Origin: Pirellulales bacterium | GTDB lineage: Bacteria; Planctomycetota; Planctomycetia; Pirellulales; S012-138 | Direction of reading: 5' to 3' | DNA: 64,000 bases | Assembly (NCBI GenBank): GCA_028066245.1 | Contig: JALCBR010000009.1 | Coordinates: forward strand, 1-64,000 | Shown here: one piece after another, positions 57,267-60,020 of the stretch | How the letters are laid out: each line of letters starts with the position of its first letter | How positions within the stretch are numbered: the first letter of the stretch is position 1 | Notes under the pieces: model-generated | The model's database searches: none | Told to the model about the DNA's origin: nothing | The model's input: the letters and a program-made list of their open reading frames with translations, nothing else | Position numbers and translations under genes: made by a program

Positions 57267-57875
57267 TCAATTGTTCAACAACTCTGCCTTGAGCGTCTGT
57301 CGAATTTCGTTCGCCAGCATCCGGACGCGCTTATACGGAATGTCAAGCTGCGCCGAGATATGAAGCAAAGCCTGCCCTTTCGCCATGCGATGGGCGATAG
57401 CTTTCTTGGTATTGGGAAATCGGTTTAACCGCTCTGCCAGGTTGATCGCTTCGTTTTGGCTCCTTGGCGTGGCCTCGATCAGTTGAACATCATGTTCATC
57501 ACTCACTTCCGGGGACTGCCGCTGCAACGTCAGGCCGGCCTTGAGCGCCTGGCGATAGAGGATTGTTCCCATCCATGCAGAGAATTTGTTTTCTCCACGG
57601 TTTAGTTTGAAGCCAAGCGTGACATTAGATTCCATTTGTGTTCGCAACTGAAGCACGACGTCGTCCGCGATGTCTTCCGCCCAGGTCATCGGAATCCCAA
57701 GACGCGAACACGCCTTGCAACAACGCTGCATCAAAAGTTCTTGGAACCAGGGATCAATAATCAATCGGGACCAAACGTGGTGCAGCATCGCTGTACCATC
57801 TACGTGGCCGTCGCAAACGGCGCGCACTTGCTCAACAAACCACACGGAAAGTTGATCTGCATCGGACTTAGGCAT
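57267..57875 (-). CDS. Sigma-factor-like protein (divergent ECF type)
   Basis: 202 residues from ATG 57875 (frame stays open upstream but without coding character). The layout is that of an ECF sigma factor: a region-2-like helical part (DPWFQELLMQRCCKACSRLG, WAEDIADDVVLQLRTQM, FSAWMGTILYRQALKAGL) and a C-terminal region-4-like helix-turn-helix (AHRMAKGQALLHISAQLDIP, YKRVRMLANEIRQTLKAELL). Both are recognisable by pattern only. It lies in an island with a second sigma-like gene and an RpoA-CTD-like gene. Confidence moderate. Confidence 0.6.
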   Translation of the reverse strand: MPKSDADQLSVWFVEQVRAVCDGHVDGTAMLHHVWSRLIIDPWFQELLMQRCCKACSRLGIPMTWAEDIADDVVLQLRTQMESNVTLGFKLNRGENKFSAWMGTILYRQALKAGLTLQRQSPEVSDEHDVQLIEATPRSQNEAINLAERLNRFPNTKKAIAHRMAKGQALLHISAQLDIPYKRVRMLANEIRQTLKAELLNN

Positions 57876-58238
57876 GAGATGGTGGAGAATTCTCGTTCCG
57901 AAATCGACATCCGCAATGCTACGCGTCGCGTTGTCATCACCGGCGATGTGTTTTGGAAAATTCCGGGGATGTGATCGGCGCGCATGCTGATCGCAACGCC
58001 AGCATTGCGTTTGCGACAGAGGATCCAGAGTTCTTACAAGCGCGTGTTCGCCCCGCGCGTGCGGCCGGCGCCTGCCGAATAAGGAAAGACGGACGCGGCT
58101 AGTCCGCATCAAGCCTGTCGTCCCGGCTGCAAAGATAGTGAACAAAAGTTCACTAATCAAGTATTTCCTAACTACAAAATGTCGTAGTTACTCAATTGCC
58201 ACCACACTACGCATTGCATGTGCAGCACAGGTCTGTGT
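57876..58238. other. Intergenic region with two short palindromes
   Basis: Holds GTGAAC (58138-58143) / GTTCAC (58148-58153) and, 16 nt further on, AACTAC (58170-58175) / GTAGTT (58184-58189), in an AT-rich patch. Likely regulatory. The sigma-like frame is open up to 58160 but looks non-coding there. Confidence 0.4.
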
Positions 58239-58538
58239 TCAGTCAGATTCCGTGTCCGCCTCACCTTTGTCCGTCGCATCTTTGTTGGCAACGGTTTGAT
58301 GGTAGTGCTCGGTGAGGATCTCTGTGTGAGCTTCGTCCCAACTCCGGAAAGAGTAGATCAAGCGGTACGCGCCTCGTTGCTCGGCCTCTGGGAGCTTGTT
58401 TCGTACGAGCGCCCATAACAGGTTGCGATCGACCACCGGAGCCAATGATTCATCGCGAAACTTAGGGCGCGGCTTGGCCAGCAAGTCCAGCAAGCTCTTG
58501 GGCCTGTCTTCCGGAGATGAGTTGTTACTGGGAGCCAT
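58239..58538 (-). CDS. Small protein of unknown function in the sigma-like island
   Basis: 99 residues from ATG 58538. Composition is polar with a mid-protein helical block (SLLDLLAKPRPKFRDESLAP, VVDRNLLWALVRNKLPEAEQ, RGAYRLIYSFRSWDEAH). No transmembrane segment and no family recognised. It diverges from the following sigma-like gene, so the 224-nt gap between 58538 and 58763 probably holds divergent promoters. Confidence 0.5.
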   Translation of the reverse strand: MAPSNNSSPEDRPKSLLDLLAKPRPKFRDESLAPVVDRNLLWALVRNKLPEAEQRGAYRLIYSFRSWDEAHTEILTEHYHQTVANKDATDKGEADTESD

Positions 58539-58762
58539 GGCGAATCCGAGAACATATGAATCTTTGCCTCGGGCGGACGTTTGAAAGTCTTGCCGGAAAT
58601 TCACCGTTTTGCAATGGCGGAATGCGACCAATCGGGAGAACCGATGCGTTTGTCCCTACACGAGTTGCACCTTCAAGCAGCTTTCGATGAAACATCGCTT
58701 TGCGCGATGGCGCGAGAGTTGCTCCCCATCAACAGAAAGAAAGCGCGGCCTGGGGGTAGAAA

Positions 58763-59290
58763 ATGCCAACCGTCCAGCAACCATCATGGCGTGATTTGCA
58801 TGGCGATTTTTGTCGTTTCGCAACCATGACAGAATCGCAAGCTCAGCGAGCTCATTGCTTTTGGCAACTGTTGAGAGATCACCCCTGGGTGGCGAGAAAG
58901 TTGTCCCAGAGTGTTGACACAGCCGAGAACCGTGGATTCCGAGACGAGCTCTCTTTCAGGCTGACACTTCAGTTGGCACCGCAGTCAAGTGGCGATATTG
59001 CCAAACTGACGCTTCGTGAATTCTGTCACATGCTAAAGGCACAACGCAGTGCGGCAGCGAAGTTCCTCAGGCCGTTGGCGGTGGTCGCGGTCTCTGACCT
59101 CGATGCCATGGTCGAAACCCAACAGATGATCGACCGCTTGCCCCCTCTGCCAAGGACGGCGCTCACATTGCGACTAAAAGGCATCAGCGTCGAACACGGC
59201 GCCGCGTTGCTCCGCATCTCAGTTTTCGCTTTCTATTCTGCCTGGCGCGAGGGCGCGCTGGAAATCCAAAAGAATCTTTGCGCGCCCTAA
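58763..59290 (+). CDS. Sigma region-4-like protein (divergent)
   Basis: 175 residues; ATG 58763 has GGGGG at about 7 nt. The C-terminal third looks like a sigma region-4 or LuxR-like helix-turn-helix (LPPLPRTALTLRLKGISVEH, GAALLRISVFAFYSAWREGA). The N-terminal half has helical segments (LRDHPWVARKLSQSVDTAEN, FCHMLKAQRSAAAKFLRPLA) that might be a degenerate region 2. Weak similarity only. An internal ATG (58826) is a possible alternative start. Confidence 0.5.
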   Translation: MPTVQQPSWRDLHGDFCRFATMTESQAQRAHCFWQLLRDHPWVARKLSQSVDTAENRGFRDELSFRLTLQLAPQSSGDIAKLTLREFCHMLKAQRSAAAKFLRPLAVVAVSDLDAMVETQQMIDRLPPLPRTALTLRLKGISVEHGAALLRISVFAFYSAWREGALEIQKNLCAP

Positions 59291-59450
59291 CTCGATTCAT
59301 TCACTGGGCTTCCGCAGGCCGCGCCGACCGTTTTCGCAGCCTTGTTTGGGCAACGCGGCGCTGTTTCCGGCAATTCTCTTCTGGGGACGGGGAACAAAAT
59401 GGAACGTTGACCAGATCATTCTTGCATTCCAGCGAAATTGGGAGCCAGCG

Positions 59451-60020
59451 ATGGTGACGCGCGCCGTGTTTGAGCGAACGCAATCGATGCATGCCAACGG
59501 AGCCAGCGCGGATGAAATCGCGCGAGCGCTCGGGATCTCACGCAGCACTGTCTACAAGATCAATCAGGGTCGGTATCACCCGACAACGAAAGCACGTCGT
59601 TGCGACACATGCGGAGGGCGTTTCAAGAAGGACGTGTGTGACCTCTGCCAGGCGAGACGCCGCAGGAACGGAACCCAGTTCGCCACCACGAGTGTGGCAG
59701 CCAATGTCACTCCGCAGGAAAAGAGGAAGTTGGAAACTGCATTGGTTGACATACTATCGATTCGCGTCGCCAACTATCTCGACTCCGCCGGCGTTCGCAC
59801 TGTGCACGATGTGCTGATGCGGACTTGCCGAGAGCTTCTGGCCGTGCCCGGCATCGGACTGGGCAGTTTCAAGCAAATCCTCCGCGCTTTAGACGACTTG
59901 GAGTTCGATACGCAACGTGCCTGGCAGTTTTACAATCGCACCCTTGCCAAGAAAGCGGGACGGAAGATCAATCTGAAGAACTCAGCCGTCTCACGGTCAG
60001 CAAGTATGGCGGCGGCGTGA
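59451..60020 (+). CDS. Helix-turn-helix / zinc-ribbon / RpoA-CTD-like protein
   Basis: 189 residues; ATG 59451 follows GGGAG at 6 nt. Residues about 6-42 form a resolvase-type helix-turn-helix (GASADEIARALGISRSTVYK, then INQGRY); 51-66 a CxxC...CxxC zinc-ribbon (C51, C54, C63, C66); 95-150 a helix-hairpin-helix domain strikingly like the RNA polymerase alpha-subunit C-terminal domain (ILSIRVANYLDSAGVRTVHD, then RELLAVPGIGLGSFKQILR). The last ~40 residues are basic. The arrangement suggests a DNA-binding factor that mimics or contacts RNA polymerase; function is inference. It follows the sigma-like gene by 160 nt. Confidence 0.75.
   Translation: MVTRAVFERTQSMHANGASADEIARALGISRSTVYKINQGRYHPTTKARRCDTCGGRFKKDVCDLCQARRRRNGTQFATTSVAANVTPQEKRKLETALVDILSIRVANYLDSAGVRTVHDVLMRTCRELLAVPGIGLGSFKQILRALDDLEFDTQRAWQFYNRTLAKKAGRKINLKNSAVSRSASMAAA

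Follow-up and report, generated by a model that had tools for sequence, protein, structure and literature searches.

At positions 57267-60020 of the window (the whole 64,000-nucleotide stretch of DNA that we analyzed), four open reading frames were confirmed, and two palindromes lie among them:

57267..57875, minus strand: sigma1, a divergent relative of ECF-type sigma-70 factors, 202 aa
58136-58155: palindrome, TAGTGAAC-4-GTTCACTA, with 8-bp perfect arms and a 4-nt loop; predicted as a possible operator
58169-58190: palindrome, TAACTAC-8-GTAGTTA, with 7-bp perfect arms and an 8-nt spacer
58239..58538, minus strand: 99-aa protein, a predicted soluble anti-sigma candidate with a class I ASD-like fold and replaced zinc ligands
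58763..59290, plus strand: sigma2, of the same sigma family as sigma1, 175 aa, with a clear region 4 and a shortened region 2
59451..60020, plus strand: protein with an HTH, a CxxC/CxxC zinc site, and an RNA polymerase alpha-CTD (HTH/Zn/alpha-CTD), 189 aa

All four frames are intact, and their codon usage resembles that of neighboring genes in the annotated frame and not in the other five. It is very likely that this island has a role in transcription control.

The 99-aa gene and sigma1 are separated by a gap of 363 nt (57876-58238), in which both perfect palindromes fall. Palindromes had been noted at 58138-58189 in a first-pass annotation of this DNA, and they proved to be exact, though short; with arms of 8 and 7 bp, their excess over chance is not clear. 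The frame of sigma1 remains open upstream to 58160, which covers most of the gap. We rejected this longer frame in favor of the ATG at 57875, because homologues 200-207 aa in length fit that start.

Several other features were sought in and around the island. A direct repeat (GCTAGTCCGCAT) flanks it at 58098 and 60140, with exactly two copies genome-wide, and was attributed to chance because approximately 0.7 exact 12-mer pairs are expected per 4.9-kb stretch. The sequence GCAAAGATW occurs near gene starts, with three of its four window copies inside the island and a count of four reached in 2 of 100 shuffles; it was dropped as a shared motif owing to its inconsistent orientation and position. 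Predictions of sigma-70 promoters stayed at chance level, terminators were weakly above chance, and searches of Rfam and of a viral fold library returned no matches and no meaningful match, respectively. The sole match in a defense library (MAD1) was weak and confined to the HTH (E 0.0015), and we judged it to reflect a generic HTH. Finally, flanks differed when synteny at purQ was compared across genomes of the window's taxonomic family, so no clean insertion could be demonstrated.

Two divergent sigma-like proteins of one family

Sigma factors determine which set of genes RNA polymerase transcribes; planctomycetes encode many of the ECF type, few of which have known targets. By sequence comparison, sigma1 and sigma2 are very divergent ECF-type relatives that belong to one family. 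The first-pass annotation had described both as divergent and sigma-like, which is borne out by BLASTP matches to a sigma factor in genome G136 (L046) and by profile comparison with ECF structures, although direct matches fall under curated cut-offs. Specifically, sigma1 matches TIGR02937 (sigma70-ECF) at E 1.9e-5 over residues 45-199, a span that includes both regions but lies under the curated cut-off, while sigma2 matches Sigma70_r4_2 at E 2.1e-4, in region 4 only and again under the cut-off. The L046 sigma factor bridges the two, matching sigma1 at E 8e-14 and sigma2 at E 5e-6 over 170 columns; sigma1 also matches relatives at L041 (2e-8) and L042 (3e-6). When six sigma relatives were combined in a profile (A3) and compared with solved ECF sigma factors, it matched SigE (9.9e-9) and SigW (2.4e-5), as well as SigH. 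Four relatives (L040, L041, L047, and L048) each passed the Pfam cut-off for one region.

The family appears to share the sigma2-sigma4 domain architecture of ECF (group 4) sigma-70 factors, and TIGR02937 is the best family for those members that have an NCBIfam match. It differs in several respects. The island sigmas score under curated cut-offs and fall in no named NCBIfam planctomycete subfamily, and the family carries an unusual N-terminal motif, [VF]WxxLxxxPW, which in sigma1 reads VWxxLxxxPW and lies close to the N-terminal end of the sigma2 domain. In addition, one member, the protein sigma2, has a shortened region 2 with a gap of about 20 residues. This protein may be degenerate, and its binding to core polymerase may be lost.

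A small protein that recurs beside sigma genes

The 99-aa protein, which the first-pass annotation had set aside as unknown, matched no family in the libraries that we searched. What had been overlooked is its conservation next to sigma genes and its candidacy as an anti-sigma factor. Its family comprises 12 loci, the window included. Relatives were found in genomes G008 and G026, then in six further genomes of the class Planctomycetia and two more of the order Pirellulales, and the core remains 42-52% identical among distant members. The distribution is patchy: the family is present in 8 of 357 genomes of the order, a 343-genome sample of the phylum held no relative outside the window's own genome, and plasmid and viral searches found none.

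A sigma-like gene is adjacent to the 99-aa gene at 8 of the 12 loci (the window, L040, L042, L046, L047, L048, L049, and L050). Because every locus other than the window was found with 99-aa queries rather than sigma queries, this link was not built into the search. Without the window, the fraction is 7 of 11, which has a binomial probability of 4e-10 to 7e-7 if the chance of adjacency is assumed to be 2-6% per locus. Within the stretches that were read, no sigma neighbor was seen at L051, L122, the degraded L121, or the degraded copy on contig C40 of the window's own genome. The two genes are convergent at L040, L042, L047, L048, and L050, divergent at L046, and co-directional at L049.

Mobile DNA is a frequent setting. 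A TrwC relaxase was identified at L155 and L160, a VirD4-type (coupling) protein at L157, and serine recombinases at L159. The sigma/99-aa pair recurs in distant planctomycetes, often on mobile DNA.

Individual loci vary in their composition. In Gemmataceae-type genomes (L154 and L155), the elements carry a TrwC relaxase, the sigma/99-aa pair, a small ribbon-helix-helix-like open reading frame, and an AbiEi-type antitoxin gene. At L158/L049 (G073:C6), the sigma-like gene is flanked on each side by a different 99-aa family gene; the three genes are co-directional and overlap, and the second 99-aa copy has a long C-terminal extension. The degraded second copy in the window's own genome (L043, G000:C40:3195-3389) contains one internal TGA.

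Possible resemblance to class I anti-sigma factors

The core motif of the 99-aa family, L..LVRxELPEEEA..VYRLIxxFRSW, forms a gap-free alignment with the ZAS core, L..YLDGEL......HLxxCxxC. The Hx3Cx2C zinc ligands are absent from the family, their positions being taken by Leu (or another residue), Phe, and Trp. Zinc-less and soluble forms are known among class I anti-sigma factors (PMC7406223), and the missing ligands therefore leave membership of the class possible.

An anti-sigma fold was predicted from this motif ahead of the result of the structure search. In the AlphaFold2 model of the 99-aa protein, helices span residues 38-45, 51-63, and 65-92, with a core pLDDT above 90. Among the 18 matches listed by Foldseek from a PDB library of 350,542 chains, six were anti-sigma domains, drawn from ChrR/SigE (2q1z, rank 1), RskA/SigK (4nqw), and RslA (3hug). 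Their E-values ranged from 2.7 to 8.2, and because none is individually significant, the weight of the fold argument comes from how often one functional class appears in the list. In a profile comparison (hhalign) with 15 ZAS domains from related genomes, the score was 19.0 (P 0.0054), with a probability of only 6.7%. Whereas 300 column shuffles reached at most 14.3, windows of an unrelated helical sigma profile, used as a native helical control, reached 16.6, and for this reason we regard the profile evidence as moderate.

In its model, the 99-aa protein appears to share with class I anti-sigma domains (ASDI: ChrR, RskA, RslA; PMC7406223) a layout in which short helices precede a long one; its motif seems to keep the register of the ZAS core, and its gene, like theirs, adjoins an ECF sigma gene. 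The 99-aa protein departs from them in being only ~99 aa in length, with neither a sensor nor a membrane domain, in the change of the His and both Cys to Leu, Phe, and Trp, in a conserved N-terminal extension (WxxLGxxxPxFxDESxAPPVDR), and in a gene that is often convergent with its sigma partner. Taken together, the gene neighborhoods, the alignment, and the model suggest that it is a conserved sigma partner and a candidate anti-sigma factor.

A probable regulator that carries an RNA polymerase alpha-CTD

The protein at 59451-60020 had been described as combining a resolvase-like HTH, a CxxC...CxxC arrangement, and a C terminus like that of RpoA, and each part of this description was confirmed. 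Three HTH models (HTH_7, HTH_23, and HTH_31) scored above cut-off, as did RNA_pol_A_CTD (PF03118; E 6.8e-7, 29.4 bits against a cut-off of 23.8), and the cysteines (Cys51-x2-Cys54 and Cys63-x2-Cys66) lie between the two. In the AlphaFold model, the HTH and alpha-CTD are confident and the cysteine segment is poor. The modeled alpha-CTD overlays solved cyanobacterial and E. coli alpha-CTDs with a probability of 1.00 and an rmsd of 1.1-1.2 A over ~60 aa, with no fold match having an E-value below 0.001.

A search of 58 relatives and then of 348 genomes of the class recovered full-length relatives from G002, G003, and G004, plus one at a second locus in the window's own genome (G000:C156). All fall within the window's taxonomic family, and plasmid and viral searches found none. 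PF03118 was detected in 5 of 5 family members, and the four cysteines, key HTH residues (alignment A1), and the equivalents of Arg265 and Asn268 are invariant in all five. In E. coli, Arg265 and Asn268 of the alpha-CTD are central to contact with UP-element DNA. At the position equivalent to Lys298, the window copy carries Gly.

Both the sequence and the fold of the C-terminal domain, including the Arg265/Asn268 equivalents, are thus shared with RpoA. Unlike RpoA, the 189-aa protein has no alpha-NTD, which makes assembly into core polymerase impossible; instead, an HTH and a four-cysteine site are fused in front of its alpha-CTD.

With 35% identity to the C156 copy, the protein in the window is a divergent paralogue, and its gene is located away from a conserved gene cluster. 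In C156, G002, and G004, a second CxxC protein is encoded beside the HTH/Zn/alpha-CTD gene and a small "PLTGNWD" protein is encoded divergently from it, followed in G002 and G004 by coaD; the G003 contig is cut off before this neighborhood could be assessed. At L026 (6453-8692), L028, and L029, within the window's taxonomic family, the conserved cluster comprises the "PLTGNWD" protein, a CxxC protein, and the HTH/Zn/alpha-CTD gene. A 127-131-aa protein is encoded in L027-L029, coaD adjoins "PLTGNWD" in L028 and L029, and a Pfam search of the cluster's small proteins matched no family.

Discussion

Our analysis reveals a recurrent sigma/anti-sigma-like pair with links to mobile DNA, together with a regulator architecture that is restricted to one taxonomic family. 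We found no description of either the sigma/99-aa pair or the HTH/Zn/alpha-CTD architecture in a literature search conducted mainly outside subscription journals.

With moderate confidence, we interpret the island as a set of ECF sigma factors accompanied by an anti-sigma factor that is minimal, soluble, and zinc-less, lying beside a separate alpha-CTD-bearing regulator. Under this interpretation, which draws on sequence families, gene neighborhoods, and models of two proteins, the 99-aa protein most likely keeps at least one sigma factor inactive by binding its sigma2 and sigma4 domains. It would sequester one or both sigmas between these domains, in a manner that would resemble class I anti-sigma factors apart from the zinc site, and the sigma factor, once released, would steer RNA polymerase toward a limited group of promoters. 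Judging from gene neighborhood, the pairing appears to be a patchy family of the Planctomycetia that is partly borne by mobile elements. An argument can be made against parts of this interpretation. Region 2 of sigma2 is shortened, and four 99-aa loci, two of them degraded, lack a sigma neighbor in the stretches read. Furthermore, sigma/anti-sigma pairs are usually co-transcribed, whereas the sigma and partner genes described here are mostly convergent. The Foldseek E-values (at least 2.7), the hhalign probability, and the closeness of the helical control to the observed score (16.6 versus 19.0) likewise weigh against an anti-sigma reading.

Alternatively, the 99-aa protein could be a conserved sigma partner of another kind, such as a co-activator, a chaperone, or an antitoxin-like protein of mobile elements. 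Neighborhood by itself does not show inhibition, the fold and profile evidence is suggestive only, and convergent orientation is unusual for a sigma/anti-sigma pair. Nevertheless, three different proteins contribute anti-sigma domains to a list of only 18 fold matches, and the 99-aa profile matches the helices of ZAS domains in exact register. On balance, we consider this alternative rather unlikely. Still less probable is that the island is what remains of a mobile element in decay, with divergent sigma-like pseudo-paralogues that have no present function. The degraded 99-aa copy elsewhere in the genome, the loss of part of region 2 from sigma2, and the location of relatives on mobile elements are what such decay might leave, but the four frames in the window are intact with normal codon usage, and the 99-aa core has kept its identity to distant relatives.

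As for the alpha-CTD-bearing protein of the favored interpretation, it would act as a separate one-component DNA-binding regulator, with the HTH providing sequence specificity. Because it combines an HTH with retained equivalents of Arg265 and Asn268, it probably contacts DNA through two modules. One zinc, either structural or redox-sensitive, is probably coordinated by the four cysteines, and the protein may also touch a sigma factor or mimic the alpha-CTD of RNA polymerase at promoters. A bolder proposal would unite these elements: very divergent ECF sigmas are accompanied on the mobile elements of planctomycetes by a new family of anti-sigma factors that are minimal, soluble, and zinc-less, and at one chromosomal copy an HTH/zinc-site/alpha-CTD regulator has been added that reshapes promoter choice via alpha-CTD mimicry. 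We regard this proposal as unlikely. The favored interpretation, if right, would itself add a sigma/anti-sigma system of portable size, made up of an ECF-like sigma and a partner of ~100 aa, on the mobile DNA of planctomycetes. The HTH/Zn/alpha-CTD protein would also represent a natural reuse of the polymerase alpha-CTD as a module of a DNA-binding regulator, making alpha-CTD mimicry directly testable.

The first-pass annotation had suggested that the four genes may form a self-contained module and had named their joint conservation in related genomes among the observations on which this suggestion depended; the genes are not conserved together. The sigma/99-aa pair recurs without the HTH/Zn/alpha-CTD gene, and at G002, G003, G004, and the second locus of the window's genome, the latter occurs without sigma or 99-aa genes. 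A four-gene module is unsupported because no related locus carries both sets. The proximity of the HTH/Zn/alpha-CTD gene to sigma2 may be coincidence. That the four genes form one promoter-recruiting module, in which the alpha-CTD protein links an ECF sigma to an activator site, is very improbable: sigma2 and the HTH/Zn/alpha-CTD protein are both transcription proteins encoded 160 bp apart on the plus strand, yet the genes are together at no other locus, and the other HTH/Zn/alpha-CTD genes occupy a different conserved neighborhood.

The alpha-CTD also occurs by itself in these bacteria. Across most of the Pirellulales searched, there is about one stand-alone alpha-CTD protein of ~110 aa per genome, besides RpoA, and this protein consists almost entirely of that domain. 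Its domain is homologous to that of the HTH/Zn/alpha-CTD protein, but it has neither the HTH nor the cysteine pairs, and it is encoded by a separate, co-present gene; the copy in the window's own genome (L163, G000:C124:5402-5743) matches PF03118 at E 8e-19.
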